64,000 nt of DNA, from NCBI GenBank assembly GCA_001898145.1, contig MKSR01000006.1, positions 124,001-188,000 of the forward strand, written 5' to 3'. The stretch comes from Dyadobacter sp. 50-39 (GTDB lineage Bacteria; Bacteroidota; Bacteroidia; Cytophagales; Spirosomataceae). The position numbers and the translations under genes are program-made. Positions 1-41,099 of this stretch are shown here, in pieces (positions within the stretch are counted from its first letter, which is position 1; every line of letters begins with the position of its first letter). Under the pieces are notes generated by a model. The model did not search any database, had not been told where the DNA came from, and saw only the letters and a list, made by a program, of their open reading frames with translations.

Positions 1-3000
1 AGTCACATTCACCCGCGCCTTATTCCCGACTCGATCCGTGCGTCGGTTACTTCCACCTACAACCAGCTGCTTACGCCCGGTGGCTCTTTTCTGAAACAAT
101 TTGTACTGAACGACCCGCTGGGCATTACCGGCAGGTATTTCAAAGACCTCAACGCCGCCAACAACAGCAATGCGATGGTAATGGACGACGGCATTATGTT
201 CACCGCCGACCGCAAAAGCGTCCTCATCTTCGCGTCCACCAGCTTTGATTCGGGGGCTTCGGACAAGAATGTGGAGCTGTTTGAATTAATGGAGGCATTC
301 AAAACCAAATGGAACCGCCAGCACCGCTATAACAAGTTCTCCTATTTCGGTACCTTCGAAATCGCTGCCCGGAATGCGATCCAGGTCAAACAGGATTCCT
401 ATTTCACCTCGTTCCTCGCGCTGGCAGGCATTCTGGCGCTGCTCATCGCCTATTACCGCAAGCTGCTGATACCGGTCTATATCACCATGCCGGGCATTTT
501 CGGCGCTTTGTTTGCGCTGGGGATCATCGGCTACGTCCGGCCCGAAATTTCCGGCATTTCCCTTGCGACAGGTGCAGTAATCTTCGGTATTCTGCTCGAT
601 TATGCATTCCATTTTTTCACACACCTCCGCCACACGCATTCCATTCCCGTGGCCATCAAAGAAGTAAGCGGGCCGCTGCTGACGGGCAGCTTCACCACCG
701 TCATGGCATTCAGCGCATTGCATTTTGCCAACTCCACCGTTTTGCAGGATTTCGGGCTGTTTTCGTCGCTGGCACTTTTCGGGGCGGCGCTGTTCACCCT
801 CACCGCATTGCCGGTGATCCTCTCCACCACCCGTTTTGATATACAAAAAATACCCGGCGAGCACAGCTCCTTTCGCATTCCGACTATTCCCGACAAATGG
901 CGCGGCGCTACATTAGCCGGTATTGCGGTACTGACCGTCATATTCCTCTATTTCTCGGGCGGCACCGAGTTCGACGCCAGTTTTGAAAACCTCAGCATCC
1001 AGGATGCGGAGCTGAGCGGGCGCGAGGAAGCGCTCACAGGCATTAACCCGCGCAAACAGAAGCGCATTTACGTCTTTGCATCCAATCCGCGCCGCGCCGT
1101 GGCCGAGCAGATTAACCACAATGCTTATCAAAAACTGGCTGCATTGCGGAGCGAAGGCCGCATCGTCAGCTTTGTATCTTCCGGTTCGCTGCTCATTCCG
1201 CAAGACCTTAAACAGGAGCGGATGCGCCGCTGGCAGGATTTCTGGACGCCCGGCCGCACCGATTCCACATTCCGCGTTTTCAACCAGGCAGCTGCCCGGA
1301 ATGGCTTCAATGCCTATGCATTCAATGATTTCAAGGGCTGGATCGCCGGGCGGAGCAGTTCCAATGTGTCGCTCGATACCCTTTTCAACGAGTTGGGCAT
1401 CGATAACCTGATCGACGTCAAAGCTTCCGGTACCACGTTCATTTCCACCGTAGTCGCCGAGCAATCCCAGCTTACCGATGTGAAAAAAGAACTGCGGGCT
1501 ATCGATGGCGTGGCGCTTTTCGACCGGGGTGAGCTCGCGGGCGAGTTGCTGACCATGGTGAAGGACGATTTCAATTACCTGCTATTGATATCGGCTTCCA
1601 TTGTGTTCTTTACATTATTAATCGTGTACGGACGCATCGAGCTCACATTGCTTTCCTTCCTGCCGATGGTGATCAGCTGGATCTGGATTTTGGGCATCGC
1701 AGCCATGCTTGGTATCAAATTCAATTTCGTGAATGTGATCGTGACCACCTTCATTTTCGGCTTGGGCGACGATTTCAGCATTTTCGTCACCGACGGACTT
1801 TTGAGCAAGTACAGATCGGGCAAAGACACGCTCCGCTCCTACCAGGCAGCCATTGCATTGTCCGCAACCACTACGCTGATAGGTACCGGCGTGCTGATTT
1901 TCGCCAGGCATCCCGCGATCCATTCGATTTCGCTCATCAGCGTGCTCGGCATTGTATGCATTCTGTTCATTTCTTTCGTATTCCAGCCTGTCGTCTTCGA
2001 TCTTTTTGTTCAGAAACGCATCGCGAAGAAGAAAGCACCTGTCACCATGCTGCCGTTCCTGATCAGCATTTCCAGCTTCACTTATTTCCTTTCTGGCTGC
2101 CTGTTTTTGCATTCCAAACTGGTAACCATCCTGCTGCTGCCGATGTCGAGAAAGAAAAAGAAGGCGGCCATCAACAATTCGCTCTCTTTTTACGCCAAAA
2201 CGGTGATCTATTCCGGGCCGCACGTGAGGAAGAATATTTCGGGGCGCGAAAACCTGGATATGAACAGACCGGTGATCTTTATCGCCAACCATACATCGTT
2301 TCTCGACATCCTGCTCGCCATTATGCTCCATCCGAAAATCGTACTGATGGTCAAAGGCTGGGTATACAAATCGCCTTTTTTCGGGCCCATCATCCGTTTT
2401 GCAGGTTATATATACAGTGAAGACGGCCCCGAAGAGAACATCGGAAAAGTGCGTTCGCTGGTGGCAGATGGCTATTCCATCCTCATTTTCCCCGAAGGCA
2501 CACGCTCGGAAGATGGCGACATTGCACGTTTTCACAAGGGCGCATTTTACCTGGCCGAGCAGCTGAACCTCGACATTCAACCGATATTGCTCCATGGCGC
2601 ACACGACGTGCTTCCTAAAAACGACTTTCTCATCCGTCCGGGCGCGCTCAACGTGCGCGTACTCCCACGCATTACCTATGCGGACGAGCGCTGGGGCACG
2701 ACGTTGCGCGACAAGACCAAAAGCATCGCCGCGCTTTTCAGGCAGGAATTCGCTTCGTATAAGGATGAAATGGAGGATACACGCTATTTGAAACACAAAA
2801 TTTTCACCAATTACGTGTTTAAAGGCCCGGTGCTCGAATGGTATTTTAAGATCAAATGGCGTCTGGAAAGTACCAACTTCACCTACTATAATGCGCTGAT
2901 CGGCGGCCGGAAGCGGATCCTCGACGTAGGCTGCGGGTATGGTTACCTTTCATTTTTCCTGCATTACAAAGATGCGGAGCGGCTCGTCACCGGCGTGGAT

Positions 3001-31069: not shown

Positions 31070-31966
31070 ATGTCCACCTACTCGATAAGGGACCTCGAAC
31101 GCATTACCAGCACCAGGGCGCACACAATCCGCATCTGGGAGCAACGTTACGGCCTTCTCGCACCGGAACGGACAGATACCAACATCCGGTATTACAACGA
31201 CGAGCACGTCAAAAAACTGCTCAATGTGTGCACGTTACTGAACCGCGGGATGAAAATTTCGCAGATCAGCCAGCTTAGCAACACAGAAATCTCCGATGAG
31301 ATCGACCGCATTATCTCGGAGTCGATGGAAACCGATGCGCATGCCGAAGCGTGGATCAACCAGGCCATGGCCGCGATTGCAGCGTACGATGCGCCGGCAT
31401 TTCATCAACTGTTTGCGGATGCCGTACAACGGCTGGGACTGGTCAGTACCTACGAAAAAATCCTTTACCCCTTGCTGGTCCGAACCGGCCTGATGTGGAC
31501 GAAGGACGCATTGCTTCCCTCGCAGGAACATTTCTTATCGAACCTGATCCGGCAGAAGCTGTTTTCCGCGATTGACGCATTACCGATACCGGAAGAAAGC
31601 GACCAGACATGGCTGCTTTTCCTGCACGAGGGCGAGGAACATGAAATCGGTTTGCTCTTCGCGTACTACCTGCTCACACAGGCGGGCCAGCGTGCCACCT
31701 ATCTGGGCACACGCGTGCCGTACGCAAACCTGCGGGCGGTGGCGGGCGGGATAGCGCCCACGCACATGTATACCTTCTTTGTCGGCAACCAGCCTGAAAG
31801 CATGGCACCGGCATTGCTAAGCCAGCTGGTGCATGATTTTCCGGATTGCCGGATCTGCTTTTCAGGCGGCGTAGACGGCCCCGCGAATGAGCCCCGCGTG
31901 CGCCATATTAAATCGATTGACGACCTATTTGAAACCATCGGGAAGAATGCACACACCAATCCATAA
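31070..31966 (+). CDS. MerR-family B12-binding photoreceptor regulator (CarH/LitR-like)
   Basis: 298 aa. MerR DNA-binding domain, residues 4-75 (YSIRDLERITSTRAHTIRIWEQRYG). A four-helix B12-capping domain follows, with W143, nine residues, then E153-H154: the Wx9EH motif of CarH. The cobalamin-binding Rossmann domain has E189-x-H191-x-x-G194, the ExHxxG variant in which the His ligates cobalt. CarH-type proteins repress carotenoid genes in the dark as AdoCbl-bound tetramers, and light breaks the Co-C bond and releases DNA. It is the first gene of the crt operon, with crtI starting 20 nt before its end. Light control is inferred from motifs and location. Confidence 0.88.
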   Translation: MSTYSIRDLERITSTRAHTIRIWEQRYGLLAPERTDTNIRYYNDEHVKKLLNVCTLLNRGMKISQISQLSNTEISDEIDRIISESMETDAHAEAWINQAMAAIAAYDAPAFHQLFADAVQRLGLVSTYEKILYPLLVRTGLMWTKDALLPSQEHFLSNLIRQKLFSAIDALPIPEESDQTWLLFLHEGEEHEIGLLFAYYLLTQAGQRATYLGTRVPYANLRAVAGGIAPTHMYTFFVGNQPESMAPALLSQLVHDFPDCRICFSGGVDGPANEPRVRHIKSIDDLFETIGKNAHTNP

Positions 31967-33452
31967 GCAAACAAGCAAGAACGTCGGCATAATCGGTGCC
32001 GGATTTGCGGGAATGGCGGCAGGCGCGCTTCTCGCAAAGGAGGGCCACGACGTCACGGTATTTGAAAAAAATGATTCGATCGGCGGCCGGGCACGCACCT
32101 TTTCCGAGAATGGTTTCACCTTCGACATGGGCCCCAGCTGGTACTGGATGCCCGATGTGTACGAGCGCTTTTTCGCGCGGTTTGACCGGGCGGTGGCCGA
32201 TTTATACGAGCTCAAACAGCTTGATCCGGGTTTCGCGGTGGTTTTCGCCGACCATGAAGCAGTAGATATCCCGGCCGATTTCGAGCAGCTATGCCTCTTA
32301 TTTGAACAGATAGAAACGGGCGCAGCGGAAAAGCTCCGCCGGTTCATCGCCGACGGGGAATTCAAGTACCGCGTCGGGATGGATGACATGGTGTACAAAC
32401 CCGGCCATTCCATTACCGAGTTCATGAGCTTGCGGCTGTTCGGCCAGGCATTGCAATTGCAGCTTTTCAGCTCTTTCAGCAGCCATGCGCGGCGGTTTTT
32501 CAAAGATCCCCGGCTGCTTGCGCTGATCGAATTCCCGGTCCTTTTCCTGGGGGCCATGCCCAAGGATACGCCTGCGCTGTATAGCCTGATGAACTATTCC
32601 GGCTTGAAACAGGGCACTTTCTACCCCATGGGCGGGTTCGGAAAAGTGGCCGATACATTCCGCGACATTGCCCGGCAGGCCGGCGTACAGTTCCGTACTT
32701 CCGAACGGGTGGAAAACCTTGAAACATCAGCCGGCCGCATCCGGCATATCCATACCACCAGCCAGTCCGTGGCCGCGGATGTGGTAATAGGAAGCGCCGA
32801 TTACCAGCATATCGAGCAATCATTACTATCCTCGCCAGACCGGCATTACAAAGAAAGCTACTGGGCCGACCGCACATTTGCCCCGTCGTGCCTGCTGTTT
32901 TACCTCGGTGTGGATAAGCGCATTACCAGGTTACGGCACCATAACCTGTTTTTCGACCAGGATTTCGGCCTGCATGCCGAGGAAATTTACAAGGATAAGA
33001 AATGGCCAACGGCACCGCTGTTTTACGTATGCTGCCCCTCGGTTACCGACCCGTCGGTGGCACCTGAAGGACATGAGAACCTCTTCATTCTCATGCCGAT
33101 CGCCACCGGACTGTCCGATCCGGAATCCATCCGGGAGCATTACTACCAGCTGCTGATGGACCGCCTCGAAAAATTCGCCGGCGAACCCATCCGCGATCAC
33201 GTCGTACTGAAAAGAAGCTATTGCGTTTCCGATTTCAAAAACGACTACAATGCCTACCAGGGCAATGCATACGGGCTTGCCAATACGCTTGGTCAGACCG
33301 CGATTTTCAAACCCAAACTTAGAAGTCCGAAAGTCAGTAACCTGTTTTTCGCCGGCCAGCTCACCGTTCCTGGCCCCGGCGTGCCCCCTGCAATCATTTC
33401 CGGCACCATAGCCGCCCATGAAGTTCTCAAATACCTAAACAGCCAATTATGA
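31947..33452 (+). CDS. crtI: Phytoene desaturase
   Basis: 501 aa from ATG 31947 (MHTPIHKQTSKN), overlapping the regulator gene by 20 nt. The FAD motif is GIIGAGFAGMAAGALLAKEG (about 14-33), followed by VFEKNDSIGGRA. The C-terminus has the CrtI signature PGPGVPPAIISGTIAAHEVL. Bacterial CrtI introduces the double bonds that turn phytoene into lycopene. The neighbouring crtB, cyclase and crtZ supply the steps before and after. It overlaps crtB by four bases (ATGA). Confidence 0.95.
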   Translation: MHTPIHKQTSKNVGIIGAGFAGMAAGALLAKEGHDVTVFEKNDSIGGRARTFSENGFTFDMGPSWYWMPDVYERFFARFDRAVADLYELKQLDPGFAVVFADHEAVDIPADFEQLCLLFEQIETGAAEKLRRFIADGEFKYRVGMDDMVYKPGHSITEFMSLRLFGQALQLQLFSSFSSHARRFFKDPRLLALIEFPVLFLGAMPKDTPALYSLMNYSGLKQGTFYPMGGFGKVADTFRDIARQAGVQFRTSERVENLETSAGRIRHIHTTSQSVAADVVIGSADYQHIEQSLLSSPDRHYKESYWADRTFAPSCLLFYLGVDKRITRLRHHNLFFDQDFGLHAEEIYKDKKWPTAPLFYVCCPSVTDPSVAPEGHENLFILMPIATGLSDPESIREHYYQLLMDRLEKFAGEPIRDHVVLKRSYCVSDFKNDYNAYQGNAYGLANTLGQTAIFKPKLRSPKVSNLFFAGQLTVPGPGVPPAIISGTIAAHEVLKYLNSQL

Positions 33453-34285
33453 AGAGCCTCTTTGATGATTTATCAGCATCGTGCAGCAAAAAAACGACGC
33501 AGCTATACAGCACCTCGTTTTCCCTGGGAATTTACTTCCTGAAACCCTCACTGCACAAGGCTATCTACGGAATTTACGGGTTTGTGCGGCTGGCCGACGA
33601 GATCGTCGACAGCTTTCACGGCTACGACCAGGAAGTGATGATGGCGCGCATTCGCAAAGAAACGCATGATGCCATCCGTGAGCGGATCAGCATTAACCCT
33701 ATTTTAAACAGTTTTCAGCATGTCGTACACACCTACCAGATCGAATGGCAGCTTATCCATACTTTCTTGAAGAGCATGGAAATGGATCTGCTCCAAAAGG
33801 AACACACGCAGGACTCTTATCAGGAATATGTGCTGGGCTCGGCAGAGGTGGTGGGCCTGATGTGCCTGCGTGTTTTTACAGAAAATGACACCGTCCTGTA
33901 CGACGCTTTGAAGCCCTATGCGATGAAGCTCGGCGCGGCTTTTCAGAAAGTGAATTTCCTGCGCGATCTGAAAGCCGATTATCAGACGCTGGGTCGTACT
34001 TATTTTCCGGGTGTAAATTTCAACCATTTCTCCTACGCCGACAAAGTGCAGATCCAGCAGGAGATCGAAGCCGATTTTGCCGAAGCGCTGATCGGCATCC
34101 GTCAATTGCCCGCCAGCTCGCGCAGGGGCGTTTACCTGGCGTATTATTATTACAAAAAATTGTTTCTGAGAATCAAGGAAACGCCGCCGGAGAAAGTGAT
34201 GAATGCCAGGATCAGGATCCCGGATATCGACAAGTTCGGACTGATGTTTCGGTCGCTGCTGAGGCACCAGTTTGATCTTTTATGA
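33449..34285 (+). CDS. crtB: Phytoene synthase
   Basis: 278 aa. The first Asp-rich motif is DEIVD (RLADEIVDSFHG, about residue 50). The second is the RDLKADYQTLGRTYFP segment (about residue 170). Condenses two geranylgeranyl diphosphates to phytoene. Starts on the crtI stop (ATGA), so coupled. Trans-isoprenyl diphosphate synthase is not in the window. Confidence 0.95.
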   Translation: MKSLFDDLSASCSKKTTQLYSTSFSLGIYFLKPSLHKAIYGIYGFVRLADEIVDSFHGYDQEVMMARIRKETHDAIRERISINPILNSFQHVVHTYQIEWQLIHTFLKSMEMDLLQKEHTQDSYQEYVLGSAEVVGLMCLRVFTENDTVLYDALKPYAMKLGAAFQKVNFLRDLKADYQTLGRTYFPGVNFNHFSYADKVQIQQEIEADFAEALIGIRQLPASSRRGVYLAYYYYKKLFLRIKETPPEKVMNARIRIPDIDKFGLMFRSLLRHQFDLL

Positions 34286-34288
34286 CGT

Positions 34289-34327
34289 TTTTGTGTTGTA
34301 CAGGGAGAATATTCCCACAACACAAAA
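34289..34327. promoter_or_regulatory. Long inverted repeat between crtB and idi
   Basis: TTTTGTGTTGT (34289-34299) and ACAACACAAAA (34317-34327) are perfect 11-bp arms, with an inner GGGA/TCCC pair. No U-run follows on either strand, so it is not a normal terminator. It fills most of the only sizeable gap (60 nt) in the operon. Confidence 0.7.
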
Positions 34328-34345
34328 CCTGAAACCCACCATCCT

Positions 34346-34861
34346 ATGAACGACCAAGTTGTGCTGGTAACGGAAAACGACGAAGCCATTGGCCTGATGC
34401 CCAAGCTGGAAGCACACGAGAAAGGTGTACTGCACCGCGCATTTTCGGTGTTTATTTTTAATTCAAAAAACGAAATGCTGTTGCAAAGGCGTGCATTCGG
34501 CAAATACCACTCGGAAGGGCTTTGGTCCAACACCTGTTGCAGCCACCCGCTCCCGGGCGAACCCGTACACGACGGGGCCGTGCGGCGCCTGCGTGAAGAA
34601 ATGGGTATCGAGGCCGATCTAGAATTCCTTTATACATTTCAATACCGGGCCGACCTGGAAAACGGATTGACTGAAAATGAGCTGGACCACGTGTTTTACG
34701 GTGTTTCCGATGCAGTACCAACCATCGACCCCGCAGAAGCCAGCGATTACAAATACCTGACGATTCATGAAATACAAGCCGATATCCAGCAAAACCCGCA
34801 TACCTACACCGAGTGGTTCAAGATATGCATGCCGGTAATGGCCCGCAGGATCGGTAGTTAA
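34346..34861 (+). CDS. idi: Isopentenyl-diphosphate delta-isomerase, type I
   Basis: 171 aa. Nudix-fold IDI with the catalytic cysteine in SNTCCSHP and the REEMGIE Nudix-like helix with its metal-binding Glu; the second Glu is in ENELDHV. Interconverts IPP and DMAPP, feeding the carotenoid pathway whose genes flank it. The 60-nt gap before it contains a strong inverted repeat. Confidence 0.95.
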   Translation: MNDQVVLVTENDEAIGLMPKLEAHEKGVLHRAFSVFIFNSKNEMLLQRRAFGKYHSEGLWSNTCCSHPLPGEPVHDGAVRRLREEMGIEADLEFLYTFQYRADLENGLTENELDHVFYGVSDAVPTIDPAEASDYKYLTIHEIQADIQQNPHTYTEWFKICMPVMARRIGS

Positions 34862-34884
34862 CGCAACACTAACCTTGAAAAAGC

Positions 34885-35358
34885 ATGATGCCGCATTGGA
34901 CACTCAACGTTTTGATCACCCTCGGCGCATTTGTGGCGATGGAATGCGTGGCCTGGCTGGCGCATAAGTACCTGATGCACGGGCTACTATGGTCGCTGCA
35001 CCACGATCACCACCAGCGCGACGACGGGGATTTCTTCGAGAAGAACGATTATTTCTTTGTCATTTTCGCCACGCCCGGCATTACCTTCCTGTGGCTGGGG
35101 CTCAATGCAGGTTTCAATTACCTGTTTTGGATCGGCCTGGGCATCACCATTTACGGCTTTACCTACTTCCTGGTCCACGATGTGTTCATTCACCAGCGGT
35201 TCCGGGTGTTCCGGAACACGGATTCCGTCTACCTGAAAGCCATTCGCCGGGCGCATAAAATGCACCATAAACACCTGGGCAAGCATGGGGGCGAATGCTT
35301 TGGCATGCTTTGGGTCCCGCTGAGATATTTCCGTGAAGCCCAAAAAGCGACGAAATGA
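34885..35358 (+). CDS. crtZ: Beta-carotene hydroxylase
   Basis: 157 aa, four helices, with the His clusters of the fatty-acid-hydroxylase superfamily: HKYLMH, HHDHH, and HKMHHKHLGKHGGE. These bind the di-iron centre. Adds 3-hydroxyl groups to beta-rings, giving zeaxanthin. The ATG at 34888 is an equally possible start. Overlaps the cyclase gene by four bases. Confidence 0.93.
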   Translation: MMPHWTLNVLITLGAFVAMECVAWLAHKYLMHGLLWSLHHDHHQRDDGDFFEKNDYFFVIFATPGITFLWLGLNAGFNYLFWIGLGITIYGFTYFLVHDVFIHQRFRVFRNTDSVYLKAIRRAHKMHHKHLGKHGGECFGMLWVPLRYFREAQKATK

Positions 35359-36089
35359 AACTGCTGTACCTGCTGGTGGACCTGGGCGCCATTTCCGTGC
35401 CGCTCCTGGCATCATTCCATCCTAAAATCCGGCTTGACAGGCATTGGAAAGCACTTTGGCCTGCTATACTGATCTCGGCGGTGCCGTTTGTCATCTGGGA
35501 TAGCTATTTTACCCAAATCGGCGTGTGGGGATTTACACCGGCGTACCTGACAGGTTTCAGTCTGTTCGGTTTGCCTGTTGAAGAGCTTCTGTTCTTTATC
35601 TGCATTCCTTACGCCTGCATGTTTACGTACTATTGTTTCAGGCTTTGGAAAGGGCAGCTGCATTTGAGAGCGGAGCAAACCGTTACCTGGATTTTCATCG
35701 GTCTTTGCCTGGTCCTCGGCCTGTTTGGCGCGGGCCGCTATTACACCTCTTCGACCATGAGCTGGCTGGCCATTTTTCTGATTTACCTGAAATGGCAGGC
35801 CAAACCGAAATGGCTCGGCTTATTCTACTATTCACACCAGTTCCTGCTCATTCCATTCGTGATCGTCAACGGCATTCTCACAGGTACCGGCCCGGATAAA
35901 CCGATCGTTTGGTATAATAATGCCGAAAATCTGGGTGTGCGCATGCTCACGATCCCTATTGAAGACATCTTCTACGGAATGCTCCTGCTGCTCCTGAATG
36001 CATTTCTTTTCGAGTATTTTCTCCAAAAATCAGAATCCCGGCAGGCGGCATCAGAACACCTCCCCGTGCGTGAGCGCAACGAGTTTTGA
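35355..36089 (+). CDS. Lycopene beta-cyclase, CrtYcd-type integral membrane
   Basis: 244 aa with about seven helices and two homologous lycopene-cyclase domains, carrying PVEELLFFICIPYA (about residue 75) and PIEDIFYGMLLLLLNAFLF (about 200). These PxE motifs are those of the fused heterodimeric cyclase found in Bacteroidetes and archaea, unrelated to FAD-dependent CrtY. Cyclises lycopene to beta-carotene. Its 3' end overlaps the convergent flavoprotein gene by 39 nt. Confidence 0.92.
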   Translation: MKLLYLLVDLGAISVPLLASFHPKIRLDRHWKALWPAILISAVPFVIWDSYFTQIGVWGFTPAYLTGFSLFGLPVEELLFFICIPYACMFTYYCFRLWKGQLHLRAEQTVTWIFIGLCLVLGLFGAGRYYTSSTMSWLAIFLIYLKWQAKPKWLGLFYYSHQFLLIPFVIVNGILTGTGPDKPIVWYNNAENLGVRMLTIPIEDIFYGMLLLLLNAFLFEYFLQKSESRQAASEHLPVRERNEF

Positions 36090-37190
36090 GGTAAGCCACG
36101 GCGTTTTATCGAGCAGTCTCAATGCAATGTCCGTCGTACGGCTCTTACCGAACAGCTTTTGAAGATGGTAACCAGCCTTGATCCTCGTTCCGAATGCCGC
36201 ATTCCATTCGCGGTGATAGTTTTCCAGGGCCTGCCGGTAGGTTTGTTTGCGCTGGAATAGCAGCAGCAATTGTGCCGCCAGCAACCTGGAAGCGCGCATA
36301 CCCATGCTCATACCATTCCCGCAGAGCGGCGTGATAGAACCTGCAGCATCGCCGAGCAGAAAGATACCCTCCGATTCGGTTTGCTTTTTATTGAATTGCA
36401 CATTGCTGATCACCAGTGGCTGTGCATGCACAAATTCGGATTGGGTAAAGTAGTGTTTCAGAAATGGATTTTGAAATAGAACAGCTTCCTCCATTTGTTT
36501 TACATCCTTTCCATTTTCCGTCAGATTGCGGGCCGTAGTGAGGTAACACAGGCAATGCCAGTCGCGGTCTACTGCTGAAATGCCGCAATAGCCATCGCTG
36601 AAATTATGCAATTCAATTCGATTGGAGGGAAAATCGGTTTTGATATGATACTTGACTCCGATATAATTCTGGTTATCGGCACCCGGCGCATTCGTTTCCG
36701 GCAGATGAATAAATTGCGGGGTGTATTTGCCATAACTCCCGCAGACCACTTTCGAAGCAAACAGGCCAGAAGAAGTACGGATCCGGAAGCCTTCGTTCGT
36801 ATTCCCCTGCACGTCCGTCACGCGGCATTCCTGCACCACACGCACGCCCTTACGTGAAGCTATCTCGAAAAGGTAGTGATCGAGGCTGTACCGGCTAATG
36901 CCAAACCCGCCCATTCCAAGGTGATGGTTCAATATAAAACCACGATCGGAACTGATGCCCAGGTGATGGATTTTGGGTAATGCAAGATCCGCCAGCGGCA
37001 AACCCAGGCTTTCCAGAAAGGGCCAGCTTTCCATTGAAATATACTCACCGCAAACCTTATGGAATGGATACTTCCCTTTTTCAAAAACGGCTGTCGAAAT
37101 GCCGTTGTCCGCCAATTGAATAGCCAGGCAAAGCCCCGCCAGCCCGCCCCCGATGATCGCGCATTCGAAATGTTCAGTCTGCGTTTCCAT
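36051..37190 (-). CDS. FAD-dependent oxidoreductase (geranylgeranyl reductase/hydroxylase superfamily)
   Basis: 379 aa. FAD motif GGGLAGLCLAIQLADNG (about 13-29), then VFEKGKYPFHKVCGEYIS, the KVCGE pattern of geranylgeranyl-reductase and related hydroxylases. A second FAD segment LLGDAAGSITPLCGNGMSMGM lies near 285. Third gene of the PKS operon, overlapping the methyltransferase gene by 17 nt. In srsABC-type operons the flavoprotein oxidises the alkylresorcinol ring to a quinone; here either ring hydroxylation or reduction of a prenyl chain is possible. Confidence 0.8.
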   Translation of the reverse strand: METQTEHFECAIIGGGLAGLCLAIQLADNGISTAVFEKGKYPFHKVCGEYISMESWPFLESLGLPLADLALPKIHHLGISSDRGFILNHHLGMGGFGISRYSLDHYLFEIASRKGVRVVQECRVTDVQGNTNEGFRIRTSSGLFASKVVCGSYGKYTPQFIHLPETNAPGADNQNYIGVKYHIKTDFPSNRIELHNFSDGYCGISAVDRDWHCLCYLTTARNLTENGKDVKQMEEAVLFQNPFLKHYFTQSEFVHAQPLVISNVQFNKKQTESEGIFLLGDAAGSITPLCGNGMSMGMRASRLLAAQLLLLFQRKQTYRQALENYHREWNAAFGTRIKAGYHLQKLFGKSRTTDIALRLLDKTPWLTSKLVALTHGEVF

Positions 37191-37851
37191 AAACGATCAC
37201 TTCATGACGGAATGCCCATTTATTTTGTACAGAAAACCGGGTGGCGCCCGATTGTTTCAAAATTTCCAGCCATTCTTTCTTTTTAAACCCTCTCAAGACA
37301 GACAACGGCGCATCGTTTTTCACCAGGTATGATTTTGAAAAAAAACGGGTAAGCCATTTGATGGAATAATAGGCGAGCGGGTTCCTTTCCAGGTCGTTGA
37401 TAACGAGTATTGCCCGGTTGCTCAATGCAAATCGGACAAGCTCTGTGAGATCTGTATCCGTGAGGTGATGGCAAAACAGGCACGCGTGAATCACATCCAC
37501 CTTTTCTAAATGCCGGTAAGTGTTTCGGTAATCGTCACAAATGAGCGTGACACCCGTTTTTCCCAGGTTTTCACCGGCATAGGCAATGCAGTCGGGTTTG
37601 AGGTCCACGCCATAAAGATCCAGGTTAAACCCGGCCTTCCTGTTCCAGGTGGAAATGCGTTTGAGCGTGTCTCCTCCCCCGCAACCGATATCGACCAATG
37701 CATATCGCTTCCCATGTTGCAGCACGCGCTTCAATGCGTTGAACGAGATATCGTAACCGCCGAGCCAGTGGTTGATAAAATCCAGTTCGCGAAGATTTTG
37801 AAAAAGGTCCGCTGTCGGAATATCGTCCCGGTCGAGCAGTTCCTTGTTCAT
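37174..37851 (-). CDS. Class I SAM-dependent methyltransferase of the PKS operon
   Basis: 225 aa from the ATG at 37849-37851 (MNKELLDRDD); another ATG at 37869 would overlap the PKS gene. Motif I is VDIGCGGGDTLKR (about 66-78) and motif II YGVDLKPDCIAYA. It starts 4 nt after the PKS stop. By analogy with SrsB it may methylate the phenolic product on carbon or oxygen. Substrate inferred only from context. Confidence 0.85.
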   Translation of the reverse strand: MNKELLDRDDIPTADLFQNLRELDFINHWLGGYDISFNALKRVLQHGKRYALVDIGCGGGDTLKRISTWNRKAGFNLDLYGVDLKPDCIAYAGENLGKTGVTLICDDYRNTYRHLEKVDVIHACLFCHHLTDTDLTELVRFALSNRAILVINDLERNPLAYYSIKWLTRFFSKSYLVKNDAPLSVLRGFKKKEWLEILKQSGATRFSVQNKWAFRHEVIVYGNAD

Positions 37852-37855
37852 GCTC

Positions 37856-39820
37856 CTATGCCTGAACATAGCGCAGCTGCATGGTTTCGATGCTCAGTCC
37901 CGGACCAAACGCAGCGGCAAAAATACGCTCGCCGGCATGTTCCGGCTTTGCCTTTTCCAACACATCTTTCAGGACGAACAGGACGGTAGGCGACGACATA
38001 TTTCCGTAATTTTTGAGCACGTTGTAGGTGGGACCAAGCAGACATTTGTCCAATTCCAATGCCGAAGCAAAGTCGTCCACAATGCGCTTTCCGCCTGGAT
38101 GCACGGCCCAATGCCGGTAATCATTCGGTTTCAGGCCAACCGCTTTCAGCATAGGCCGGATGTTTTCGCGGATCAGATCGGGCACATACGACGACAGGTT
38201 CATAATAAATCCTGTTTCGGAAAGCTGCCAGGCCATGTCGGAATACCCATTATGCAGCACCATCGAATTAAATCCGTCGATTCTGACCGGGTGCAGGTAG
38301 CGATCGTCCGGCTCCGACGACACCAGCAGCGCCGCCGCACCATCGCCAAAAATCATATTGGAAAGCAGGTAGTCGTCATTATAACGCTTCTGGAAATGGA
38401 TCGTACAAAGTTCCGTGCAAACTACCAGCACCTTCGCATTGGGATGACTTTTACAAATGGCATCCGCATTCTTCAATGCGAGAATGGCTGCATTACATCC
38501 CATGAAATTCACGCTGCTGCGCTGGATCGAAGGGTTCAACCGCAGGTCGCGCATGAGTTCCACGTCCAGTCCGGGCGCGAATAATCCGGTACAGGTAACC
38601 GTGATCAGATGCGTAATGCCGCGTTTCATGTTTTCAAAACCGGGGATTTGCTCAATCGCCTTCCTCGACAATGCCGTCACATGTCTCTGGTAAAGCTGCA
38701 TGCGTTCCGAAAGTGTGGGCTCCGGCATCAAGGCCGCATCCCGGTTGAAAAATGTAAAATCTTCTGGATTTTGATCAAAATCGGGAATGACGGAGTAACG
38801 CTTTTCAATGCCTGTCTTGCCGGAGACAATCCTGATCTTGCGGCGGGTATTGAGGTCATCAGTCGATCGCAGGTAGAAATCGGTAAGCGTTTCCTGCGCA
38901 TAACCATATTCGGGAACGGCTGTTTCAATAGAGGATAGATAACTCAATGGAATTCTGTTGATAATAATTAAAACGATGAAACAACTATTCATGCAAATCG
39001 CCGCCACCCAGTTCATCCGCATGGTATTCCTGAAATTAGCCTGGCGACGGTCTTTCAAGACCAGCATAAACCAGGTCCCGAACCAGATCACAATGGGGAT
39101 GAAGAACACCTGGACAATGTAAAAAATCATTCCAAGTTCCCTGGTTGTAAAGTACAAATAATAAAACACATTGCAGAGCACAAACATGGCGGCCGTGAAT
39201 GCAAAAGTGCCGATATAACCCAGTTTATAGCTCAACGTCTCCACGCCGTCGCGCAGGTCCTGCTCGTGCTGGTACACCTGTGTGAGCGGATAGGCACCCC
39301 CGATCTGGAAAGAGCAGCCCAGCAAGACGAAGATATTGGCCGTATCCAACCGCAAAGCGCCACCCGAAACACCCGCTATCGACATATAGTAGGTAAATGC
39401 CCCCTGAAAAACTACCACAGTAAGAAACCCCAGTACCGGGTACTTCTTCAGTCGGATCTGTCGCGAGCTGTATGCCCTCGACGCCCCGATGTAGAGTACC
39501 AGGCAAAGCGCGAACAATGTATTTACGAAAACGAGCGCCAGTAGGGTTGCGGCAGCATCCAGGAAAATCGTGACGTAAAAAAGGTCTTTGGTAGGAAGCG
39601 GCGGCTTCTCCAGCCCGCCAATACTGTCCTCGTCCCGGTCCACATAGCTATTGTAGCCGTTGCTGGCCGGGTAAACGAGGAAATGGATGATCAGAAAGCT
39701 CCATAATGCCTGCCGGTGCACCACCGTCTCGGCCTGGCTGTATGCGAAAAGAAACAGCGGGGCGAGGAAAAACGAGAATGGGATTCTCAGGAGCTTAATG
39801 GTATTGCGGTCGATCGGCAT
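37856..39820 (-). CDS. UbiA prenyltransferase / type III polyketide synthase fusion
   Basis: 654 aa in one frame. Residues 1-289 are UbiA-like: about eight helices, with Asp motif 1 NSYVDRDED (N57, D61, D65) and motif 2 HEQDLRDG (D188, D191). Residues about 292-654 are a full-length type III PKS with Cys442 (FMGCNAA), His574 (AVHPGG) and Asn607 (NYGNMSS), the complete catalytic triad. The PKS part begins SYLSSIETAVPEYGY directly after the last helix, with almost no linker. A TTG at 38945-38947 sits exactly where a free PKS would start, so separate translation is possible. The product is probably a prenylated phenol/quinone or membrane-tethered alkylresorcinol; this is an inference. Confidence 0.85.
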   Translation of the reverse strand: MPIDRNTIKLLRIPFSFFLAPLFLFAYSQAETVVHRQALWSFLIIHFLVYPASNGYNSYVDRDEDSIGGLEKPPLPTKDLFYVTIFLDAAATLLALVFVNTLFALCLVLYIGASRAYSSRQIRLKKYPVLGFLTVVVFQGAFTYYMSIAGVSGGALRLDTANIFVLLGCSFQIGGAYPLTQVYQHEQDLRDGVETLSYKLGYIGTFAFTAAMFVLCNVFYYLYFTTRELGMIFYIVQVFFIPIVIWFGTWFMLVLKDRRQANFRNTMRMNWVAAICMNSCFIVLIIINRIPLSYLSSIETAVPEYGYAQETLTDFYLRSTDDLNTRRKIRIVSGKTGIEKRYSVIPDFDQNPEDFTFFNRDAALMPEPTLSERMQLYQRHVTALSRKAIEQIPGFENMKRGITHLITVTCTGLFAPGLDVELMRDLRLNPSIQRSSVNFMGCNAAILALKNADAICKSHPNAKVLVVCTELCTIHFQKRYNDDYLLSNMIFGDGAAALLVSSEPDDRYLHPVRIDGFNSMVLHNGYSDMAWQLSETGFIMNLSSYVPDLIRENIRPMLKAVGLKPNDYRHWAVHPGGKRIVDDFASALELDKCLLGPTYNVLKNYGNMSSPTVLFVLKDVLEKAKPEHAGERIFAAAFGPGLSIETMQLRYVQA

Positions 39821-39960: not shown

Positions 39961-40425
39961 TTAGTATGTTTTGGTAAAATCGTTATCGGCATAGCGTACC
40001 TCGCCGCCTTTCAGCTTCACGTAGGCGCGATACGACAGCGCATGGGTCCCGCTTGGAAAACCGATCTTAAAAGACTCGGTCATGAGCCCCTCTTTCGCAG
40101 CGGCCTTGAACTTCGCCGCTGGATAAGGGCCGTCGACAACAAGATCCACCAACTTGGTTTCGGGCAAAAACGCGTACACAACGCCATATTCATCGATCGG
40201 AATATTGCCGATCTTTTCAAAATTGACCGTAAAGGTCTCGATCACACCACCCAGCACATGAAAGGTGGCAGCGCCCGTATGAATTTCCGGGAAGATTTTT
40301 TCCTGCGGCTTGACGTCGTTCTTGTGCGTGTGGTTGGTGCATGAAAGCATTGCAACGAGGGCCAACAGAATAGTGAGCCATGAAAATAGTTGTGTACAGC
40401 CGATTTGTTTGCGATTGCTTGCCAT
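39961..40425 (-). CDS. Small lipoprotein, paralogue A
   Basis: 154 aa from the ATG at 40423-40425 (MASNRKQIG). Signal peptide with lipobox LVAMLSC, so the mature lipoprotein begins near Cys29. The body (about 45-154) is predicted beta-rich. It aligns end to end with the neighbouring gene product (shared GNxPIxEYGxVYAFLP and ALSYRAYxKxxGGEVRYA). The YG(I/V)V...YRAYxK...G..RYA pattern recalls the FN3-like domains of Bacteroidetes surface proteins. Function unknown. A terminator separates it from the PKS operon. Confidence 0.75.
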   Translation of the reverse strand: MASNRKQIGCTQLFSWLTILLALVAMLSCTNHTHKNDVKPQEKIFPEIHTGAATFHVLGGVIETFTVNFEKIGNIPIDEYGVVYAFLPETKLVDLVVDGPYPAAKFKAAAKEGLMTESFKIGFPSGTHALSYRAYVKLKGGEVRYADNDFTKTY

Positions 40426-40594
40426 AGTTTTGTTTGTTTTCGGCAAGTATAGCATCCCACACGGCGCATTTCGGTATGCAACCACCAAGCGGCTATGGCG
40501 CGATTACCAATCGGTATTTTTGTACAAATCCTCTCAAAGGATTTCCTCCATTTCCGCGAGGCTAGCCGAGAGTTCCGCCACCGGCAGTCGGGGG

Positions 40595-41050
40595 TCAATA
40601 AGTCTTATTAAGCCGGTTCGGGGCGTAGCGCACTTCGCCGCCCACCACTTTGGCATAGGCGCGGTAGGATAAGGCGTGCATTCCAGAGGGAAGATTGATG
40701 TTGAAAGTCTCCGAATTCGCTCCGATTTTAGGCGCATTCTTGAACTTGGCCGTGGGATAAGTACTTCCGATCACGAGGTTTACGGCATTAGTATCAGGCA
40801 AAAACGCGTACACGATGCCGTATTCTTCGATCGGTACATTTCCGAGACTTTTGAAATTGAGGTAAAAATTTTCCACCACCTTGCCTGACGGGCCGAAAGT
40901 GGCGTTAACCGTTTGTATTTCAGGAAGCAACCTATCCGGTGCGGGCGTTGGGGTATATTTCGGCGCACACGAAACCGCGACGATAATCATCAGCAGGCCA
41001 AACAATGAGAAGAGGTTTTTGCGGTGGGTAAGTCTGTGAATGAAAGTCAT
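40595..41050 (-). CDS. Small lipoprotein, paralogue B
   Basis: 151 aa from the ATG at 41048-41050 (MTFIHRLTHRK); an ATG six codons earlier is also open. Signal peptide with lipobox IVAVSC. The mature part aligns with paralogue A over its whole length at roughly half identity by eye, ending in NKTY against TKTY. A tandem duplicate with 169 nt between the two genes. Function unknown. Confidence 0.75.
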   Translation of the reverse strand: MTFIHRLTHRKNLFSLFGLLMIIVAVSCAPKYTPTPAPDRLLPEIQTVNATFGPSGKVVENFYLNFKSLGNVPIEEYGIVYAFLPDTNAVNLVIGSTYPTAKFKNAPKIGANSETFNINLPSGMHALSYRAYAKVVGGEVRYAPNRLNKTY

Positions 41051-41099
41051 AAACCGTTTTTTCAGCAATTTTATATTAATCCTAACTCTGAAAACGCAA

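Follow-up and report, generated by a model that had tools for sequence, protein, structure and literature searches.

The subject of this study is a 64,000-nucleotide stretch of the genome of the soil bacterium Dyadobacter sp. 50-39 (contig MKSR01000006.1, positions 124,001 to 188,000; hereafter the window), and in particular a gene on its minus strand in which a membrane enzyme of the UbiA prenyltransferase superfamily is joined to a type III polyketide synthase (PKS). The reading frame, 654 codons long (37856-39820), is open throughout, as had been proposed in an initial annotation made from the sequence alone. By Pfam, UbiA covers residues 20-268, and the N- and C-terminal chalcone/stilbene synthase domains cover residues 296-504 and 522-652; each match exceeds its curated cut-off. 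The features on which the argument depends are the following (TM, transmembrane helix; fused and split denote species with one frame and with two genes, respectively):

37856..39820, minus strand: UbiA-type III PKS fused frame, 654 amino acids; one open reading frame with the Pfam domains above, unbroken in 32/48 Dyadobacter genomes
38957..39820, minus strand: UbiA domain, codons 1-288, nine TMs
37856..38947, minus strand: PKS frame from the internal TTG, 363 amino acids plus stop, the proposed free PKS; in alignment its beginning matches that of the separate PKS gene of the 13 split species, use of the start being inferred
38945..38947, minus strand: TTG codon 292, ancestral PKS start inside the fused frame; TTG in 32/32 fused and 13/13 split Dyadobacter
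38912..38986, minus strand: junction of UbiA and PKS, codons 279-303, running from the last part of TM9 over the linker and the TTG into the first PKS strand; holds the lowest windows in the scan of synonymous constraint
39632..39661, minus strand: first UbiA motif, N54..N57-S-Y-x-D61-x-D63; invariant in 40 aligned relatives and, except for residue 59, in 32/32 fused
39257..39280, minus strand: second UbiA motif, Q181-x-Y183-Q184-x-x-x-D188; invariant in 40/40 aligned relatives and 32/32 fused
38495..38497, minus strand: PKS catalytic Cys442; 32/32 fused, invariant in alignment A2
38099..38101, minus strand: PKS catalytic His574; 32/32 fused, invariant in alignment A2
38000..38002, minus strand: PKS catalytic Asn607; 32/32 fused, invariant in alignment A2

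In an AlphaFold2 model of the fused protein, calculated with an alignment of 45 rows (A4), both domains are folded (pLDDT 90.4); TM9 ends at residue 289 and the first PKS strand starts from residue 294, leaving a linker of about four residues, in agreement with the earlier statement that there is practically none. Among the titles and abstract openings listed in searches of the open-licence literature in PubMed Central (PMC), none describes this UbiA-PKS fusion.

Among the 48 Dyadobacter genomes queried with the fused protein, the frame is continuous in 32, 13 have adjacent separate genes, and three (G001, G007 and G437, with no match to the fused protein at 1e-40) lack the pair, G001 and G007 containing only a weak PKS relative (31% identity). 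The order UbiA, PKS, methyltransferase, flavoprotein is identical in all 45 Dyadobacter loci. In a tree of these four proteins, built from the 45 loci and from 6 of 15 loci of other genera, the 32 fused species form one clade with support 1.0, nested in split Dyadobacter lineages. Two wider surveys of 395 genomes each, which sample evenly from larger groups (Bacteroidota) and overlap one another, gave matches in 116 genomes at class level (at 1e-20) and in 103 at phylum level (at 1e-60); among the matches listed, which in the class survey reach down to an E value of about 1e-37, the only unbroken UbiA-PKS frame was the window's own. Eight relatives with unusually long frames were fetched and read, and none joins UbiA to PKS, the extra length being a hydrophilic stretch before the PKS or the neighbouring methyltransferase frame. 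Finally, in the 80 best named loci, which are the best matches and not a census, the genes are fused in 10 of 14 Dyadobacter loci and in none of the 66 others, 38 of which contain the complete set of four in this order (some of the loci end at contig ends). Within the reach of these surveys, the fusion is thus restricted to a single clade of Dyadobacter. The initial annotation, which had called for a search of relatives for the same two-domain order, had counted two separate genes in all close relatives against the fusion: this is indeed the state of relatives outside the clade, but within it the fused frame is fixed (32/32).

The way in which the fusion arose can be read from the junction. 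Each of the 13 split Dyadobacter species has the TTG start of its PKS gene overlapping the TGA stop of its UbiA gene (TTGA). Fused species keep the same TTGAGT, and the bases just upstream of it are offset by one frame step; the basal fused locus L102 and the split locus L106 are one T apart, in a short T run beside the junction. Since the joined species are one clade inside the split ones, the fusion was created once, by a frame change of net +1 shortly before the TTG. No reversion to the split state was seen among the 32 fused descendants surveyed. Overlaps of four bases are described as typical of translational coupling and as enriched among subunits of complexes (part of PMC10666635). Because the TTGA overlap resembles that of coupled genes for complex subunits, cooperation of UbiA and PKS before the fusion would fit. 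Programmed -1 frameshifting in the split species was considered and rejected, the T TTT TTC run before the stop being present only in L113, L114 and L115 of the 13 and hence not conserved.

The codon located by the initial annotation exactly at the PKS boundary, TTG 292, is the one that would have started the separate PKS, and it has been kept with a constancy that the protein does not require. Codon 292 (TTG) and codon 293 (AGT) are each represented by a single codon in all 32 fused genes, which among the fused genes is true of no other of the 37 invariant leucine and 18 invariant serine columns. By parsimony, codon 292 has undergone no change, the next lowest of 46 leucine columns having 3 and a typical one about 11; likewise codon 293 has undergone none, against 2 for the next lowest of 23 serine columns and about 8 typically. 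A scan of synonymous constraint, limited to columns in which at least 26 of 32 residues are equal and excluding methionine and tryptophan, found its strongest signal in the gene in the 15-codon window 289-303 (z -6.1), a value as low as this occurring in 0 of 2000 permutations, whose lowest values average -2.8, with a 1% limit of -4.1. The scan contains its own positive control, in that the zero-change codons 651-652 coincide with the start of the methyltransferase gene. In addition, the GC content of third codon positions is 0.34 and 0.27 over codons 281-300 and mostly 0.4-0.7 elsewhere in the gene. Taken together, the aligned genes indicate that the TTG and its surroundings are under selection at the nucleotide level. 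Two other causes were examined and discarded. A pause at rare codons is not supported, as TTG accounts for 21.5% of leucine and AGT for 17.9% of serine codons, and both are therefore common. Nor is an internal promoter for a PKS transcript: within the fused gene there is no match to TTTG-N15-25-TANNTTTG, and a sigma-70 scan found one site, on the opposite strand and at chance level, these two types being what the promoter search covered.

The messenger RNA (mRNA) around the TTG is also unusually open. From -20 to +20 many species have a folding energy of -1.1 kcal/mol (range 0.0 to -2.4), whereas the means over the gene lie between -4.4 and -7.3; on average, 6.3% of the other windows of a gene reach this openness. 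Another member of the phylum, Flavobacterium johnsoniae, is reported to have mRNAs that lack Shine-Dalgarno sequences, with initiation being better with low structure from -20 to +20 and with A at positions 0, -3, -6, -12 and -13 (part of PMC6847099). At the Dyadobacter TTG, A is found at -6 in 30/32 fused and 0/13 split species, and at -12 in 31/32 fused and 2/13 split species. From these positions, the site looks as if it had shifted in the fused clade from reinitiation to independent initiation.

The PKS half belongs to the type III PKS family. It scores 96.7 bits with PF00195 and 80.5 bits with PF02797 (cut-off 27), its predicted fold is that of solved type III PKSs (7d41_B, TMt 0.88, E 1.5e-23; PKS18, 1tee_B, TMt 0.87), and the nearest PDB sequences are those of PKS18 and of plant type III PKSs. 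The Cys-His-Asn triad is intact, as had been noted earlier (C442, H574 and N607 in 32/32 fused). With the DpgA model the PKS half scores 151.5 bits, far under the cut-off of 425. The source genome contains no further type III PKS above the Pfam cut-off.

The UbiA half departs from the canonical pattern. It scores 64.7 bits with PF01040 (cut-off 34.2) and has the nine-helix UbiA fold; phmmer found no match to it in the PDB at E up to 1; a profile of 40 UbiA relatives matched 4od4 with E 0.0064. Canonical UbiA enzymes have the aspartate (Asp)-rich motifs NDxxDxxxD and DxxxDxxxD. The initial annotation had recognized both Asp motifs, which holds only for the first, present as NSYxDxD and invariant except for residue 59 (Y in 27 and F in 5 of the 32 fused species). 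The second is QxxQxxxD, with glutamine where Asp would be expected, in all 40 sequences of the motif alignment A5, whose rows were chosen and are not all the loci carrying UbiA; the canonical pair of Asp motifs is thus absent from the UbiA half. Homologues from Archaeoglobus and Aeropyrum (4tq3/4tq4, 4od5) are 15-19% identical to it, and the QxxQxxxD motif sets it apart from them. By fold and profile, the UbiA half would be placed in a divergent subfamily of the UbiA superfamily, and we do not claim for it the status of a canonical aromatic prenyltransferase. Because NSYxDxD and QxxQxxxD replace the canonical motifs, its prenyl donor is uncertain.

The topology of this half bears directly on the fate of the PKS attached to it. 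The mean number of lysine plus arginine residues in successive loops of the 32 fused proteins, with loop limits chosen by hand, is 1.66, 0.62, 2.31, 0, 3.94, 0.88, 2.5, 0.91 and 4.28, and 0.94 at the junction. From this alternation of positive loops, the UbiA half looks N-in/C-out. For Escherichia coli UbiA, nine TMs and a periplasmic C-terminal tail of three residues are reported, and the addition of four hydrophilic residues to this tail to abolish insertion of TM9 (part of PMC11589881). Similarly, UbiA of the split Dyadobacter species ends only a few residues past TM9. All this argues that a PKS placed immediately after TM9 would either be exported or prevent that helix from inserting, and in both cases the long form is unlikely to be the sole source of PKS. 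The suggestion of the initial annotation that a product is made and prenylated at the membrane surface is in conflict with this topology, the C-terminal end of UbiA pointing out of the cytoplasm.

Considering these data as a whole, the locus probably yields two products, a UbiA-PKS chain and a free PKS from the internal TTG. Ribosomes that begin at the UbiA start would make a single long chain, which would be the sole form of UbiA, and, because no stop separates the domains, every UbiA molecule would bear a PKS tail unless cut; ribosomes that still initiate at TTG 292 would make a free cytoplasmic PKS. Type III PKSs are dimers, so that a free protomer could associate with a tethered one and PKS would become docked on UbiA. 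The dual-start scheme, left open in the initial annotation, has in this way become the part of it with the best evidence, namely the TTG kept in 32/32 species and a constraint matched in 0/2000 permutations, from which use of the start may be deduced. An elaboration that we regard as unlikely is a self-titrating assembly, in which each UbiA carries one PKS protomer and the retained start supplies the dimerizing free PKS, which would fix the PKS on the prenyltransferase. This would require the last UbiA helix to lie outside the membrane or to be re-entrant, with the PKS staying inside; a PKS outside the cytoplasm would be the stranger alternative.

It should be noted that several observations weigh against initiation at the TTG. 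Codons 215-234 are nearly as constrained as the junction (window 219-233, z -5.5 against the 1% limit of -4.1); given this second stretch, constraint alone is no proof of a start, and the permutation ignores the correlation of adjacent codons. In three loci (L095, L098 and L099) the openness of the junction is unexceptional, with 17-20% of windows as open. The codon is TTG and not ATG, and C is found at -3 in 32/32 fused species, which is no strong match to the F. johnsoniae optimum. Moreover, the A residues at -6 and -12 are shared by the clade and may reflect few events, and the basal fused loci L102 and L104 carry T at -6.

As a separate observation, codons 215-234 (39119-39178, minus strand) contain GGA-A(T/C)(G/A)-(A/G)TT-TTT in the fused species and in most of the split Dyadobacter species read, the pattern being absent from the other genera read; in the window they overlap a weak terminator-like stem followed by T (one found, 1.2 expected).

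Of the other explanations, the one closest to two products from the locus holds that UbiA and PKS work as separate proteins, translation from the internal TTG supplying the PKS, and the long form being a tolerated UbiA whose tail is idle, cut or degraded, so that the fusion itself has no function. This is a special case of the two-product reading, differing from it only in whether the long form tethers, and the likelihoods assigned to the two overlap; we consider it a tentative possibility, on the doubtful side. It shares the evidence for an internal start (codon invariance, constraint and open mRNA), it accommodates the topology conflict of the long form, and it agrees with the wide occurrence of split operons of the same order (the 38 of 66 loci mentioned above). 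However, the frame is open in all 32 species with no stop between the domains, so that UbiA is only made with its tail, and its conserved active site implies that UbiA either works in this form or is freed by cutting. The opposite extreme would be a single bifunctional membrane enzyme, with the fusion as sole product, a PKS at the membrane handing its product to UbiA, and the TTG as an ordinary codon in an AT-rich junction that slows translation. The continuity of the frame in the whole clade (32/32), the intact catalytic residues of both domains in 32/32 and the model in which both are folded are all in its favour. Weaker is the absence of a stop before codon 292 in 32 species despite AGA289 (26/32), which is one step from TGA, because neutrality would predict only about one such change by our estimate; for this reason stop avoidance was not accepted as demonstrating a need for the long form. 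A single enzyme would nevertheless leave unexplained the invariance of TTG and AGT, both of which are common codons, and its TM9 heads to the outer face, away from the coenzyme A substrates. We therefore regard it as distinctly improbable.

The junction constraint might also serve a nucleotide signal other than initiation, such as a promoter, an mRNA structure or a processing site, and the second constrained stretch shows that other signals are possible in this gene. Nevertheless, the constraint is centred exactly on the start codon of the split relatives, no promoter-like match is present there on this strand, and the junction mRNA is unusually unstructured in most species, which makes such a signal very improbable. 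Lastly, the joined and the split state differ by a single-base frame step, as they would if an error of sequencing or assembly had joined two genes; this explanation is refuted for practical purposes by the 32 genomes in one clade with full support, five of which (G005, G017, G439, G444 and G452) are listed as single contigs.

The surrounding genes give some indication of the product. They are:

37174..37869, minus strand: class I methyltransferase, start overlapping the PKS end by 14 nucleotides; Pfam Methyltransf_25, downstream of the PKS in 45/45 Dyadobacter loci
36051..37190, minus strand: flavin adenine dinucleotide (FAD)-dependent oxidoreductase, overlapping the methyltransferase end by 17 nucleotides; Pfam FAD_binding_3, in 45/45 Dyadobacter loci
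31887..36089, plus strand: facing operon crtI - crtB - idi - small protein without family match - lycopene cyclase; identified by family matches, context only

The methyltransferase and flavoprotein of the initial annotation thus do follow the fused gene, the flavoprotein lying outside the interval it had marked. The methyltransferase matches the families Methyltransf_25, 31, 11 and 12, and no isoprenylcysteine carboxyl methyltransferase family is listed for it. For the flavoprotein, the best NCBIfam model is GG-red-SF (87.9 bits, cut-off 158.8), and because this geranylgeranyl reductase superfamily scores best, if below its cut-off, the enzyme may reduce a prenyl chain or hydroxylate a ring. 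The facing carotenoid/idi operon is real as well: idi faces the operon in 45/45 Dyadobacter loci, and crtB and crtI are present in 39/45 of the stretches fetched; at a guess, its small protein is crtZ-like. From family membership, the product of the operon is most likely a methylated, oxidized or reduced, prenylated polyketide phenol. In one locus outside Dyadobacter (L130, 10810-11304, PKS on the plus strand), idi immediately follows, in the same orientation, the flavoprotein gene of a UbiA-PKS-methyltransferase-flavoprotein set, a gene order that is a hint of isoprenoid use by the operon. Upstream of the fused gene, 39961-40488 and 40595-41068 (minus strand) encode a pair of small predicted proteins that are related to each other, resemble lipoproteins on visual inspection and have no Pfam match; their relatives were seen only in L074-L085 (12 of the 45 Dyadobacter stretches fetched).

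The closest known counterparts are the split operons of other Bacteroidia, with the same four genes in the same order (13/13 split Dyadobacter; 38/66 elsewhere). In these, UbiA and PKS are two separate genes; in Dyadobacter they share the TTGA, and at the other junctions read they overlap slightly or are up to a few tens of bases apart. In some split-type loci UbiA is on the opposite strand or behind the flavoprotein. The latter placement was seen in Runella (L175, L201 and L204); in Hymenobacter (L166, L176, L179, L194, L197 and L207) the flavoprotein precedes the PKS and no UbiA was found within the fetched stretch, and in L217 (genome G388, same family as the window's genome) relatives of UbiA and PKS are neighbours transcribed divergently from opposite strands.

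In the srsABC operon of Streptomyces griseus, which directs alkylresorcinol synthesis, the type III PKS is likewise accompanied by a methyltransferase; the third enzyme, SrsC, is a flavin monooxygenase, and the flavoprotein here has the FAD_binding_3 match. The gene content is not exactly that of srsABC, as had first been supposed: the Dyadobacter methyltransferase matches Rossmann-type (class I) families, the flavoprotein scores best, if below cut-off, with GG-red-SF, and UbiA is added, a distinction drawn from family descriptions. Indeed, srsB of a cluster 51-63% identical to the S. griseus srs operon is described as an isoprenylcysteine carboxyl methyltransferase (part of PMC6669644). In a cloned fragment from Micromonospora endolithica, genes for a UbiA family prenyltransferase, a methyltransferase, an acyl-CoA dehydrogenase and a type III PKS are reported side by side, and the losA PKS of loseolamycin from this organism is reported to make alkylresorcinols (part of PMC7587189). 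The genes of the loseolamycin locus are separate, and the parallel, drawn from the gene table, is in gene set only.

What Dyadobacter adds is a natural series with both states, 13 species with two genes and 32 with one frame, a single-base step apart and with the old start still selected. Such a series opens to testing how the second protein of a fused gene can still be supplied by itself, how an enzyme of the cytoplasm can follow a membrane protein that ends outwards, and whether a tether between PKS and prenyltransferase alters the product; it also cautions that an annotated fusion need not correspond to one protein. In CheA and SctQ/SpaO, a second start in frame gives the C-terminal part alone. 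The case proposed here differs from these in that the internal start once began a gene of its own and is a remnant of the fusion, and in that the N-terminal part of the frame is a nine-helix membrane enzyme.

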